Under the pieces are notes generated by a model. It ran no database searches. It was given only the letters and a program-made list of their open reading frames with translations, and was not told the origin of the DNA. Made by a program: the position numbers and the translations under genes. Shown here piece after piece: positions 44,290 through 54,696 of a stretch of 64,000 nucleotides of DNA (position 1 is its first letter; every line of letters starts with the position of its first letter). The stretch comes from Microbacterium endophyticum. GTDB lineage: Bacteria; Actinomycetota; Actinomycetes; Actinomycetales; Microbacteriaceae. The stretch spans positions 1,612,001-1,676,000 of the forward strand of contig NZ_CP049255.1 in assembly GCF_011047135.1 (NCBI RefSeq). The letters run 5' to 3'.

Positions 44290-45237
44290 CTACACGAGTG
44301 GGGTGCCGTGGGTGTGGAAGGTCTCGATCGTCTTCATGCCCCACGCTTGACCCTTTTTGCGCTCTTCCTGGCTCCACTCCACGACGGGCTGGTCAGGGTC
44401 CAAGAGAAGACGCGCGCCGGCGTTCGCGAATTCGATTCGGTTTCCACCGGGCTCCCAGACGTACAAAAAGAATGTCTGATTGATCGCGTGTTTGTGGGGT
44501 CCCGATTCGATGTGGATGCCGTTTTCCAAAAAGATGTCGGCAGCTTTCAAGATGTCTTCGCGAGTGTCGGGCGCAAATGCGATGTGGTGCAGTCGGTTGC
44601 CGTGTTTCGTCCAGTCGTCGGAATAGACGACGTCGTAGGACTTCAGCGAGAAGTGGAACCACCAGGCCGCGAATTTGCCGTCGTCGTTGCGAATTCGCTC
44701 GCTTTCGCGACCGCCGACCGCCGCCGCGATGAACTCGCCATTGGCCTCGACGTCCTTCGCGAGGTAGTTGATGTGGTCCAATCGCCGCGCGTTCACGCCG
44801 TGGCCGGGAAAGCGTGAAGCTTGGTTCTTCAACGCTGGCTTATCGTCGGTCGCAACGTAGCGCTCGGTCTCGTAGTAGACCCCCATCGAGTGACCGTCGG
44901 GATCGCGGAACAGGTACGTCGGTCCCGTTCCGACTTCGCCATCAGCCCAGCCCTCGCCGAGCCCTGTCGCCTCGATTGCTGCAACGCGGCGATCGAGCGC
45001 CTCTTGCGACGTCGCGCGGAACGTCGTGAGCCCGACCCCGGCGGCATCTGATGCGGTGAGCTTGATCGTGTACAGCTCGTACTCGTCCCACGTGCGGAGG
45101 TACACCGAAGTCTCGGTCTCTGCCACGACGCGCATCGCGAGGAGATCTTCGAAGAACCAGCGGCTCTTGTCGAATTCAGGAGTGAGTAGTTCGACGCTGC
45201 CGATGTGGGCGATATCGAATGAAGTTGAGTGGGTCAT
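44290..45237 (-). CDS. VOC-fold (type I) extradiol ring-cleavage dioxygenase
   Basis: A 315-residue two-domain VOC protein of the catechol 2,3-dioxygenase/BphC type. Candidate iron ligands: H155 (RRLDHINY), H217 or H218 (RLHHIAF), and E269 (GGNRIEFANAG); active-site H195 (WWFHFS) is also conserved. It is the last gene of the galB-galC-galD-like operon (46 bases after galD). Since these partners process 4-oxalomesaconate, gallate or 3-O-methylgallate 4,5-cleavage is the logical reaction, yet known gallate and protocatechuate 4,5-dioxygenases are LigAB-type. ATG 45237 follows GAGAGGA. Substrate is inferred from context. Confidence 0.85.
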   Translation of the reverse strand: MTHSTSFDIAHIGSVELLTPEFDKSRWFFEDLLAMRVVAETETSVYLRTWDEYELYTIKLTASDAAGVGLTTFRATSQEALDRRVAAIEATGLGEGWADGEVGTGPTYLFRDPDGHSMGVYYETERYVATDDKPALKNQASRFPGHGVNARRLDHINYLAKDVEANGEFIAAAVGGRESERIRNDDGKFAAWWFHFSLKSYDVVYSDDWTKHGNRLHHIAFAPDTREDILKAADIFLENGIHIESGPHKHAINQTFFLYVWEPGGNRIEFANAGARLLLDPDQPVVEWSQEERKKGQAWGMKTIETFHTHGTPLV

Positions 45238-45282
45238 GATGGGGTCCTCTCTGACGTGCATGACAGGGCTTCGGGGTGCTAG

Positions 45283-46356
45283 CTACAGGCGTGGCCGGGG
45301 AAAGACTGTGCCGTCGAAGATCTTCCGTGCTGTTCGCACCGACTGCGACGACGCGGTCCAGGTGCCATCGGCTGTGTGCTCGACACTCACCTGGGCCGGA
45401 AACATTCCACTCGGGTGTTCCACGGCGGTGAGGTCTGTCTCGAGCTGGGCGATGTCGTGCCCAACAGCACCCGGGATGCGGATGCCGGCGGCAACGGATG
45501 CTGCCATCAGCACACCGATCGAGGTGTGCACTCTGGTCGGAATGAATGCGCGGGTAGATATCGCGCCACCGTTTCGAGGCGGCGAGAGCAGGATCATCTT
45601 CGGGACGGTCTGCGCTTCGACGTCCCCCAGATTCATGCGGCGCCCAGCGATCATCCGCAACTGTTCCAGTGACTCATGCAAGTCAGTGCGCGATTCGAGA
45701 TCTTCCGGAGACTCCGCGCCGCTGAGGCCGAAGTCGTCTGCACGGAGGAGGACAACCGGCATCCCGTTGTCGATCATTGTCACGCGGTGACCTGCGATCT
45801 CATCCACCACGTGACCGCTCGGGAGTAGTGGTTTTTCGCCACCAGATATCTCCAGTGAAATGAGCCCGGCGGTCCCGGGGACACCCGCGATCGCCGTGTC
45901 GCCGTCGTAGTCGGGCATGCCGTCTGAGGTTGAGAAAGTAGCTGTCGCGACGTCGCCGGTGTTCAGCAGCCGGATGCGCACCGATGCGGCGCTGCCCGTG
46001 GCTTCGATGAGACCACGTTCGATTGCAAACGGGCCAATTCCGGCCAGCAGATTGCCGCACGTCTGAGCGTCGGCGACGACAGGCTCATCTACCCCTATCT
46101 GCAAAAACAAGTAGTCGATGTCGATTTCGGGCGACGTGGAGCGCGAAACAATCGCAACTTTCGAGGTGAGGGGATGCGCGCCGCCCAGCCCGTCGATTTG
46201 GCGCGGATCGGGGCTTCCCATAATGCGCAGCAATAGATCATCACGTTGCTCCGAATCAGCGGGTAGGTCGTCCGACAAAAAGTACGCACCCTTCGATGTG
46301 CCGCCCCGCATGAGCATGCAACGGATGCCGCGGCGCTCTGCGTCAGCGACTGCCAC
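45283..46356 (-). CDS. galD: PrpF-family protein, probable 4-oxalomesaconate tautomerase (GalD-like)
   Basis: A 357-residue PrpF/GalD protein. It begins GIRCMLMRGGTSKGAYFL, the family hallmark, and keeps the second half pattern GHVVDEIAGHRVTMIDNGMPVVLL with a Cys in QTCGNLL as in the diaminopimelate-epimerase-like fold. GalD interconverts tautomers of 4-oxalomesaconate in gallate/protocatechuate 4,5-cleavage. Its GTG (46356) overlaps the aldolase gene by 14 bases and has GGAG 7 bases upstream. The linkage with GalC- and GalB-like genes makes this role much more likely than methylaconitate isomerisation. Confidence 0.85.
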   Translation of the reverse strand: MAVADAERRGIRCMLMRGGTSKGAYFLSDDLPADSEQRDDLLLRIMGSPDPRQIDGLGGAHPLTSKVAIVSRSTSPEIDIDYLFLQIGVDEPVVADAQTCGNLLAGIGPFAIERGLIEATGSAASVRIRLLNTGDVATATFSTSDGMPDYDGDTAIAGVPGTAGLISLEISGGEKPLLPSGHVVDEIAGHRVTMIDNGMPVVLLRADDFGLSGAESPEDLESRTDLHESLEQLRMIAGRRMNLGDVEAQTVPKMILLSPPRNGGAISTRAFIPTRVHTSIGVLMAASVAAGIRIPGAVGHDIAQLETDLTAVEHPSGMFPAQVSVEHTADGTWTASSQSVRTARKIFDGTVFPRPRL

Positions 46357-52931: not shown

Positions 52932-53807
52932 TCAGGTGAAGACGATTGTTTGATTGCCGTTTCGGATGACGCGGTCTTCGGCGTGCCACTGCACGGCACG
53001 AGACAACACGGCGCGCTCGACATAGGCACCGCGCGCCTGCAGATCGGCGGCCGTCATCGAGTGATCGACGCGAGCGACGTCCTGCTCGATGATGGGACCC
53101 TCGTCGAGGTCTTTCGTCACGTAATGCGACGTCGCGCCGATGAGCTTGACGCCGCGCTCTTTGGCTTTCTTGTAGGGACCGGCACCGATGAATGCGGGAA
53201 GGAAAGAGTGGTGAATGTTGATCACCGGTACGCCCACTCCGGTGAGGAAGTCGTCGGAAAGGATCTGCATGTACCGGGCCAGTACGACGAAGTCGACGTT
53301 GCCGGCGAGCAGCTTGACGATCTCGGCCTCCGCGGCAGACTTGTCGGCACCCTGCGACGGAATGTGGAAGAAGGGCACGCCAAATGAGCGCACGTCTTCT
53401 GCCGTGTTCGTGTGGTTGGAGATCACCATCGGAATCGTCACATTGAGTTCGCCACGACGCTGGCGCCACAGCAACTCGAGAAGGCAGTGATCGCTCGTGG
53501 AAGCGAGAATCGCCATGCGTTTCGGGATCGACATATCTGAGATCGTCCACTGCATGGAATAAGGCTCGAGCGTTTTGGCGAGGTCTTCCTCGACCTCGTG
53601 CAGAGCGGCCGCGAGGTCGGGCCGGTGGAAGACGACGCGCTGGAAGAACGCGCCACCCTCGGGATTGTCGGAGTACTGGTCGAGAGTGACGATGTTCGCT
53701 TTGTTCCGCGTGATGAGCGCCGTCACTGCCGCGACGAGACCGGCCTGATCCGGACCGTGCACGATCAGGCAGGCGTGGTCGCGATAAGCAGTGTTGTGCA
53801 GCGTCAT
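52932..53807 (-). CDS. purU: Formyltetrahydrofolate deformylase
   Basis: A 291-residue PurU: N-terminal ACT domain (about 10-80; [19 protein letters not shown]) and a formyltransferase-like hydrolase domain with [14 protein letters not shown], the [17 protein letters not shown] active-site segment and the conserved Asp of [15 protein letters not shown]. It hydrolyses 10-formyl-THF to formate and THF. Between metF (13 bases) and the O-demethylase (52 bases), it completes regeneration of THF after aryl demethylation. Sphingomonads pair ligM with a deformylase in the same way. ATG 53807 follows GAGGAGA at a rather long spacing. Confidence 0.92.
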
Positions 53808-53820
53808 GGAAGGCGTCTCC

Positions 53821-54696
53821 TCAGGATCGAGCGGCAACGTACTCGCCAGCCCAGCGGGAGGTCGCGAGTAGTCCACCAAAAGTGTAGAAATGCAGTTTGA
53901 CACTTCCCGCGGCCGAGTTTTCCGCGAGGAGGGCAGCGAGGTCGCCGACGAAGCGGTCGGGTCCGGCCGTTCCCATCAGGTTGGTCAACGAAAATCCGTA
54001 CTTTTTCACGATCATCGCGTTTGCGCCGATGCCGAAGCGGCGGGCGAAGCCGATCAGGCGCTTGATGCCGGCAGGGCCCGGGGTTCCGATGCGAATCTCG
54101 GACTGGATGCCACGCTTACGCACCTCGGTGATCCACGCCGTCACCGGGTCGGTGTCGAACGAGAACTGAGTGAGAATGACCGCTTTCAGGCCCTGCTCGG
54201 CGAGTGCCGCTGACTTATCTTCCAGATGACGCCAGAGCACATCTTCGGCGATATCGGGGTGGCCCTCGGGGTATCCCGCGATCGACACCTCTTTTACGCC
54301 GTACTTCTGCAGGATGCCGCTGCGGATGACCGAGAGTGAATCGGGGTAGGGGCCTTCGGGTTCGGCCGGGTCGCCGCCGACAGCGAAAACGTGTTCGGTA
54401 GCCCCTACCTCCTGCAGGCGCGCCAGAAACTCTTCGAGCTGCGCCTCGGATGAGAGGCGGCGAGCCGAGATATGGGGGACCGGGATGAAGCCCATGTCCT
54501 TCACCGCTTTCGCGGCGGCGACGCGCATATCGAGGTCTTCGTTGCCGAGAAAGGTGACGTTAATTTTGGTGCCGGCGGGGATTGAGTCACGAGCCTCTTC
54601 GAGCCCGGCGACGTCTTTGCCCGTCATCTCCAACGAGTAGTCGTTGACAAGCTTGATCGATGCCGCGTTATTTTCTGCGGGTGTCGTCTGAACCAC
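53821..54696 (-). CDS. metF: Methylenetetrahydrofolate reductase
   Basis: A 291-residue MetF-fold flavoprotein. Seen: GTKINVTFLGNED, the FAD/folate region HISARRLSS with VFAVGGDPAEPEGPYPD, and IAGYPEGHPDI (the reductase A-Y-P-E-x-H motif). MetF normally makes 5-methyl-THF; in O-demethylation operons it runs the other way, oxidising the 5-methyl-THF formed by the LigM-like enzyme. First gene of the operon metF-purU-O-demethylase. GTG 54696. It diverges from the aldehyde dehydrogenase across a region with a strong palindrome. Confidence 0.91.
   Translation of the reverse strand: MVQTTPAENNAASIKLVNDYSLEMTGKDVAGLEEARDSIPAGTKINVTFLGNEDLDMRVAAAKAVKDMGFIPVPHISARRLSSEAQLEEFLARLQEVGATEHVFAVGGDPAEPEGPYPDSLSVIRSGILQKYGVKEVSIAGYPEGHPDIAEDVLWRHLEDKSAALAEQGLKAVILTQFSFDTDPVTAWITEVRKRGIQSEIRIGTPGPAGIKRLIGFARRFGIGANAMIVKKYGFSLTNLMGTAGPDRFVGDLAALLAENSAAGSVKLHFYTFGGLLATSRWAGEYVAARS

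Follow-up and report, generated by a model that had tools for sequence, protein, structure and literature searches.

In a 64 kb window (positions 1612001-1676000) of the complete 2,916,114-base chromosome of Microbacterium endophyticum, we identified a gene cluster that we consider likely to be a two-branch island for methoxylated aromatic acids. In one branch, the predicted O-demethylase LigM2 would act on vanillate and pass its product to PcaGH; in the other, LigM1 would act on 3-O-methylgallate, and the resulting gallate would be consumed by a VOC-type dioxygenase together with GalD, GalB and GalC. We also lean towards the view that gallate dioxygenases evolved independently a second time in this VOC family (type I, with a tyrosine for the usual acid-base histidine). 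In Actinomycetota, a range of Pseudomonadota and possibly Bacteroidota, the family would take the place of GalA/DesB and channel carbon from lignin (LigM-linked) as well as from tannin (tannase-linked) into the gal pathway. The extension to Bacteroidota comes from one 4 kb metagenome contig (L083). We infer substrates, the direction of flux and regulation from gene families, gene order, conservation, a shared motif, and null searches for a LigB-type dioxygenase, DesA and VanA.

In the proposed scheme, LigM2 would move the methyl group of vanillate to tetrahydrofolate (THF), yielding protocatechuate, which would leave by PcaGH, encoded outside the window. MetF would oxidise the methyl-THF, an assumed FolD-type enzyme would give formyl-THF, and PurU would free formate and THF, with FolE adding folate precursor. 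LigM1 would demethylate 3-O-methylgallate to gallate, the VOC-type dioxygenase would open gallate to 4-oxalomesaconate, and GalD, GalB and GalC would convert this to pyruvate and oxaloacetate. A PadR protein of the VanR kind would repress both operons through a shared palindrome.

The gal genes form a minus-strand operon (47799-44290) in the order galB-galC-galD-VOC dioxygenase gene, with ends that overlap or almost touch. On the plus strand, ligM1 diverges from galB across a gap of 185 bases, and a GntR gene separates it from a second minus-strand operon, metF (54696)-purU-ligM2-padR-folE (50192). Within the latter, metF and purU are 13 bases apart, purU and ligM2 52, and ligM2 and padR 103, while padR and folE overlap by 4 bases; the start codons of purU, ligM2, padR and folE were picked by eye. 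A sequence-only reading of this DNA had proposed an O-demethylation pathway joined to 4-oxalomesaconate catabolism at 44290-54696, and profile searches and matches to solved enzymes bore out these coordinates and every gene it named. Its grouping of galB-, galC- and galD-like genes with an extradiol dioxygenase in one operon agrees with the layout above. It had also put two LigM/DesA-like genes with metF and purU in one operon, which holds for ligM2 but not for the divergent ligM1. Neither padR, folE nor the operator-like palindrome described below featured in that account. The genes of the island are as follows.

44290-45261, minus strand: VOC (type I) extradiol dioxygenase, candidate gallate dioxygenase (iron ligands H163, H226 and E277; Tyr209; likely start 45237, by eye)
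45283-46356, minus strand: galD-like 4-oxalomesaconate tautomerase (NF033377; PDB 6p3j)
46343-47047, minus strand: galC-like 4-carboxy-4-hydroxy-2-oxoadipate aldolase (NF006731; PDB 3noj)
47044-47799, minus strand: galB-like 4-oxalomesaconate hydratase of the PIG-L fold (PDB 5cgz; PF02585)
47985-49397, plus strand: ligM1, predicted THF-dependent aryl O-demethylase, proposed for 3-O-methylgallate (NF047885; PDB 5tl4; tree)
49437-50096, minus strand: GntR/FCD regulator (Pfam), also present in relatives' islands
50192-50779, minus strand: folE, GTP cyclohydrolase I, for folate supply (NF006826; start by eye)
50776-51372, minus strand: PadR-type regulator, proposed VanR-like repressor (PF03551; start by eye)
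51476-52879, minus strand: ligM2, predicted THF-dependent aryl O-demethylase, proposed for vanillate (NF047885; separate clade; start by eye)
52932-53807, minus strand: purU, formyl-THF deformylase (TIGR00655; start by eye)
53821-54696, minus strand: metF of the PDB 7xg9 kind (289.7 bits)

The extradiol gene encodes a two-domain VOC protein of type I. It falls outside the LigB superfamily, where the accessible text of two reports places gallate dioxygenases including GalA and DesB (PMC4250580; PMC3962378). The sequence-only reading had correctly recognised an extradiol dioxygenase and had missed that it belongs to the VOC (type I) superfamily, other than that of GalA/DesB. A structure model of the protein (mean pLDDT 81.1; below 50 at residues 255-261 and 305-315) matched the fold of AphC/catechol 2,3-dioxygenases and HPCD (3lm4, 7q2a, 1f1x), and on the catechol 2,3-dioxygenase model the enzyme scored 299.3, below the cut-off of 320.2. 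The His-His-Glu iron triad (H163, H226, E277) was invariant in 35 of 35 aligned sequences. The second-sphere histidine usual in type I extradiol dioxygenases, His200 of HPCD, is absent; its position is held by Tyr209 in all 35 and in 12 of 12 more (six annotated plasmid copies and six from genomes without LigM), whereas its equivalent is kept in the solved 3lm4 enzyme and in the only other relative found in the genome (29%). The positions of HPCD Arg243 and Arg293, which we take to be carboxylate contacts, are Ser/Thr and Gly in the VOC family, and H256, K257, R284, R301 and Q305 were invariant in the 35 sequences. By sequence, the nearest solved chain is PDB 9wgj (352 bits), which has a tyrosine at the same place; it is named a catechol 1,2-dioxygenase, a misfit with its family, and was absent from the best 50 structure matches listed for our model. 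The closest homologue is from Microbacterium sp. 18062 (93%), and in most of the annotated plasmid records listed the VOC copies are labelled catechol 2,3-dioxygenase or VOC protein. A search of the open literature, which leaves subscription papers mostly uncovered and so gives weak evidence of novelty, returned no publication describing this actinobacterial island or a gallate dioxygenase of the VOC type.

The three enzymes of the GalDBC pathway are encoded side by side. GalD passed the 4-oxalomesaconate tautomerase model NF033377 (446.9 bits; cut-off 440) and matched PDB 6p3j with 355.8 bits, and GalC passed NF006731 (282.7; cut-off 179) and fell short of TIGR02798 (257.1; cut-off 304.5). 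No curated GalB model passed for GalB, and its assignment rests on its best match, the solved 4-oxalomesaconate hydratase 5cgz (259 bits).

We then surveyed the VOC family in 299 genomes of the Microbacteriaceae, counting copies with 58% identity or more as orthologues. This retained 16 of 20 genomes and left out G046, G152, G200, G205 and second copies in G014, G018 and G234 (40-46% identity). VOC and GalB occurred together in 15 genomes, with starts 2.6-3.6 kb apart; VOC occurred alone in 1, GalB alone in 2 (one of them just 66% complete) and neither in 281. VOC and GalB co-occur more than chance, and the Fisher value of 3e-22 is not to be read as a probability because the genomes are related. 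The corresponding LigM count retained 14 of 17 genomes, leaving out G057, G093 and G255 (39-46% LigM identity). LigM of at least 69% identity lay within 5.1 kb in 10 of the 16 VOC genomes, and the other six had no LigM match at an E-value of 1e-80. The presence of VOC and GalB without LigM in six genomes indicates that the ring opener can work without demethylation.

Among the 47 closest loci, LigM of about 70% identity or more was present in 44, and galB, galC and galD together in 40. The island of LigM, gal and VOC genes thus recurs in many Micrococcales; within the set of 299, only one further genome of this genus, G164, carried it. The sequence-only reading is supported in that predicted THF-dependent demethylase genes are joined to 4-oxalomesaconate genes in an actinobacterium, and an operator-like motif stands before both operons. 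Its description of the combination as distinctive was half right, since the island is recurrent and an actinobacterial protocatechuate 4,5-cleavage operon is described in the available part of a published report (PMC8431788).

VOC orthologues lie beside galBCD in both Actinomycetota and Pseudomonadota. On a pAt plasmid of a walnut Agrobacterium (L104), genes for a PIG-L (galB-like) protein, VOC, aldolase, tautomerase and tannase follow one another in this order (tannase PF07519, 437.9 bits). This plasmid was typed as conjugative, and of the 73 plasmid records that gave a VOC match, 23 were from Agrobacterium. On a Pantoea piersonii plasmid, galBCD lie near the VOC gene, as do genes for a LysR regulator and an aromatic acid symporter. 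In Thioclava and A. vitis, a LysR gene accompanies genes for PIG-L, VOC, aldolase and tautomerase proteins. In Nitratireductor, the VOC gene adjoins a DesA over the cut-off, metF and purU, and the stretch examined there held no gal genes.

Both demethylases passed the LigM model NF047885 (LigM1 916.1 and LigM2 862.9 bits; cut-off 580). On the DesA model NF047633 they scored 629.5 and 608.2, under the cut-off of 800; DesA was therefore rejected for the window, and of the earlier label "LigM/DesA-like" only the LigM part applies to the two proteins. The complete genome held no DesA candidate: of its only four GCV_T matches, two are the LigM proteins, one scores 295.7 bits and the last is weak (41 bits). 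The stretch around the methyl-transferring tyrosine of the solved LigM, presumably number 247, was aligned in LigM1 and present in LigM2. In a tree of 48 LigM-like proteins, for which the tree tool gave a long-branch warning, LigM1 belonged to a 22-member clade (support 96/95) that otherwise consists mostly of LigM encoded beside galB. LigM2 fell in a clade of 7 (100/100); its six other members come from Arthrobacter, Pseudarthrobacter and Sinomonas loci, where their genes lie behind metF and, in four cases, also together with purU. These two clades largely match the gene neighbours, and the solved SYK-6 LigM (5tl4, the PDB match) lay near both LigM1 and LigM2 and apart from the DesA-like clades.

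Many relatives have extra DesA-like genes near the island, and a LigM-like copy of 36-58% identity was found in 24 of 47 close loci. Ten proteins from seven loci were scored on the DesA model, six of them being these LigM-like copies. Extra DesA-like copies in the relatives' islands L012, L022, L025 and L046 reached 476-590 bits, below the cut-off.

MetF scored 38.5 bits on the ordinary MTHFR model (cut-off 293.7), against 289.7 bits to PDB 7xg9, which we take to be the MetF of Sphingobium SYK-6. PurU passed TIGR00655 (345.6; cut-off 285.95), and FolE passed NF006826 (174.7; cut-off 162) and failed TIGR00063 (150.7; cut-off 181.6). FolE-like genes adjoin LigM in Naasia and Agromyces too (L046, L058), and on a Rhodococcus opacus plasmid (L109) FolD, PurU, MetF, a LigM-like gene, PabB, a Mur-ligase-type protein, a PIG-L protein, an aldolase and a LigM (74%) are encoded together. 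The repeated placement of folate genes beside LigM (folE in some, pabB and folD in another) suggests that islands of this kind come with their own folate supply.

Next, we considered which other aromatic routes the genome holds. No LigB-type match (PF02900) was found in the genome at an E-value of 0.001, which argues against a LigB-type dioxygenase elsewhere in it and leaves the VOC enzyme as the only extradiol candidate seen beside the gal genes. LigB matches were not depleted in VOC genomes (4 of 16, versus 69 of 283 others), and so our claim is that LigB is not needed, not that it has been displaced. PcaH and PcaG were both over their cut-offs, and their genes belong to a pca cluster that lies 12 kb beyond the end of the window and includes a pobA-like gene; the PcaGH models were applied to this genome only. 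In all 16 VOC genomes, a strong match to an intradiol dioxygenase had a weaker one next to it, an arrangement like that of PcaH/PcaG, so that protocatechuate has another outlet. No VanA was found among the five Rieske matches in the genome: the only one resembling a large oxygenase (L089) matched LigXa_C best and stayed under the VanA_C cut-off, and the four others were assessed by eye. The sequence-only reading had set this island apart from VanAB demethylation and the beta-ketoadipate route. The contrast with VanAB survives; the beta-ketoadipate route, with both pcaGH genes found, is present too, outside the window, and protocatechuate from vanillate most likely leaves there.

Between the island and the pca cluster lie CoA ligase, amidohydrolase and SDR genes (L093:647-4526), possibly a side-chain route for cinnamic acids. 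The amidohydrolase (Amidohydro_2, L093:2728-3612) was tried as a pyrone hydrolase and gave no curated match at 1e-15. Beside the pca cluster, a methionine synthase II-like protein (L093:11602-12723; NF005085, 537 bits) could be a further methyl sink.

A 13-base inverted repeat lies between metF and a divergent aldehyde dehydrogenase gene, and in eight relatives a similar palindrome (2-4 mismatches) precedes metF at the equivalent position; sites with at most 4 mismatches were present in 14 loci in total and in none in one shuffle of the loci. We built a weight matrix from nine related sites (that of the window and those of the eight relatives). Over the 64 kb, its own site scored 33.3, followed by 47916-47937 in the galB/ligM1 gap with 15.8 and then by 9.5. 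This second-best match of the window, in the gap between galB and ligM1, suggests that the operons are probably co-regulated. Among relatives, 23 of 42 scanned ligM1/galB gaps scored above the highest of 43 shuffles (4.4). The scan covered 42 of 80 loci (LigM of at least 69%, minus strand, locus number below 62); L014 was scanned at a misplaced gap, and its site comes from the palindrome search instead. The PadR domain together with an operator-like palindrome before the demethylase operon fits a regulator of the VanR type, and VanR of C. glutamicum is a PadR-type repressor released by vanillate, according to the part of the report available (PMC8358305). Both operons would then probably make up one VanR-like regulon, with PadR acting through the shared palindrome. 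Past the metF operon lie two aldehyde dehydrogenase genes, an NMT1-type ABC transporter and a PaaX-like regulator. The operator-like sites and flanking genes are listed here.

47916-47937, no strand: second-best operator match of the window, in the galB/ligM1 gap (weight matrix score 15.8; site outside the training set)
54754-54775, no strand: operator-like palindrome ATTACCTAT-N4-ATAGGTAAT, between metF and the aldehyde dehydrogenase gene
54827-56380, plus strand: aldehyde dehydrogenase (PF00171), a possible part of the island, possibly for aromatic aldehydes
56432-57943, minus strand: aldehyde dehydrogenase, a possible part of the island (match in 14 of 47 close loci)
58221-61766, plus strand: NMT1-type ABC transporter (binding protein, two permeases, ATPase), proposed aromatic acid importer (Pfam for binding protein and ATPase)

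We regard this transporter as a candidate gallate importer. All four of its genes were matched beside gal genes in four of the six islands without LigM (L096, L097, L098, L101).

Gallate is the likeliest substrate of the VOC enzyme and fits the gene neighbourhoods better than other candidates, given that the family occurs with galBCD, without LigM in six genomes, and beside a tannase. Several observations weigh against this reading and against the scheme built on it. To our knowledge, no gallate activity is known for the VOC family. The VOC enzyme is without the His200 base of HPCD, and HPCD lacking it is described as vanishingly slow in the accessible text of one report (PMC10760822). Neither galC nor galD was found in the stretch examined at 14 of 33 distant loci (13 Microvirga, 1 Nitratireductor), and no gal genes lie near the VOC copy of Pantoea At-9b. 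On a Roseomonas plasmid, the VOC gene keeps company with a class III extradiol dioxygenase, an alpha/beta hydrolase and VanA/VanB-like genes, a set that would also suit 3-O-methylgallate. Gallate calls for no redox step, yet a DUF1932/NAD-binding dehydrogenase neighbours the VOC gene at 31 of the 47 close loci and at 18 of the 33 distant ones. Finally, 19 of the 42 scanned ligM1 gaps had no site above the shuffles, with a matrix built from only nine related sites.

The dehydrogenase speaks for a rival reading in which the VOC enzyme is a protocatechuate 4,5-dioxygenase, with the DUF1932 protein as the semialdehyde dehydrogenase and vanillate carbon passing through the gal genes. The DUF1932 family recurred in 22 of 26 loci when neighbour proteins were clustered and was present in 5 of 6 annotated plasmid VOC loci examined, being absent from the Pantoea At-9b locus; an example is L097:9088-9882. 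In islands without LigM it fills the gap between galC and galD, which weakens those islands as proof of gallate. An Amidohydro_2 gene (L093:2728-3612) also lies nearby. On the other hand, among the 16 VOC genomes the DUF1932 match was strong in ten (E-value 1e-37 or better), weak in four and absent from G164 and from this genome, where one query sequence was used, and all 16 have the intradiol dioxygenase. We therefore consider protocatechuate 4,5-cleavage highly improbable, and the tannase link together with the lack of a DUF1932 match here makes gallate again the favourite substrate. It is unlikely, too, that 3-O-methylgallate is itself the substrate opened by the VOC enzyme, with a methyl ester or pyrone as the product that later becomes 4-oxalomesaconate, and that LigM1 serves vanillate or syringate. 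Pseudomonas NGC7 sets a precedent, since 3-O-methylgallate is opened directly there by MgaAB before galBCD, as far as the available part of the report goes (PMC12314914), and an alpha/beta hydrolase adjoins the VOC gene in the Roseomonas island. However, the window's gal operon holds no esterase, the tannase-linked VOC copy points to gallate, six genomes have VOC and GalB without LigM, and LigM of about 70% or more accompanies 44 of the 47 closest loci.

It is possible rather than probable that LigM1 and LigM2 overlap and that one also takes syringate, so that the island alone would degrade syringate fully. The presence of two LigM paralogues, the lack of another DesA candidate in the genome and DesA-model scores of 608-629, which are not negligible, speak for it, whereas the separate DesA-like proteins often held in relatives' islands suggest that LigM does not cover the syringate step. 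Microbacteriaceae took up label from veratric acid in groundwater, according to the accessible portion of one study (PMC10602745).

If the two-branch reading with a VOC-type gallate dioxygenase is true, gallate ring opening has two unrelated solutions, and catabolism of gallate and 3-O-methylgallate would escape genome surveys limited to LigB-type enzymes in many Actinobacteria from soil and in bacteria associated with plants. The island thereby hints at an overlooked route for the breakdown of lignin and tannin fragments. With its missing histidine, the VOC family offers a natural test of proton movement in type I dioxygenases, and regulation and cofactor supply are open to direct testing through the shared operator motif and the folE gene of the demethylase operon. 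In practical terms, such islands could provide Gram-positive parts for lignin and tannin conversion, with no formaldehyde at the demethylation step.

Parts of this island resemble known systems. With AphC/catechol 2,3-dioxygenases and HPCD the VOC enzyme shares fold and iron ligands, while differing from HPCD in having Tyr for His200 and Ser/Thr and Gly for Arg243/Arg293. LigM-type and DesA-like genes had been predicted before in actinobacteria, the former in a Micromonosporaceae genome and the latter in a few other thermophilic genomes, in the part of the report available (PMC9296663). The protocatechuate 4,5-cleavage operon of Pseudarthrobacter Sphe3 is likewise an actinobacterial meta-cleavage operon, but its dioxygenase is type II and its substrate protocatechuate, according to the accessible text (PMC8431788). 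The Corynebacterium/Rhodococcus VanAB-PcaGH route shares PcaGH and, in C. glutamicum, a PadR-type regulator; here, LigM replaces the Rieske-type VanAB and the methyl group would go to THF, not to formaldehyde. In Agrobacterium fabrum (Atu1420/Atu1418), a vanillate demethylase of the LigM type is paired with a MetF, and pca genes follow downstream, but the regulator there is of the GntR superfamily and relieved by methylene-THF, and the available part of the report does not mention a gal branch (PMC7797058). Sphingobium SYK-6 has the same THF-dependent LigM type and a MetF of the 7xg9 kind; the present island differs in having two LigM and no DesA, an operon that also contains purU, padR and folE, a PadR regulator where SYK-6 uses DesR/DesX, and a gallate opener that is not DesB-like. 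The gal pathway of Pseudomonas putida KT2440, as described in the accessible part of its report (PMC12314914), also has GalD-, GalB- and GalC-like genes in one operon and the end products pyruvate and oxaloacetate. Unlike KT2440, with its LigB-type GalA, the Microbacterium island has a gal operon in which galT/galP were not seen, is joined to LigM, and has a ring opener of the VOC type.

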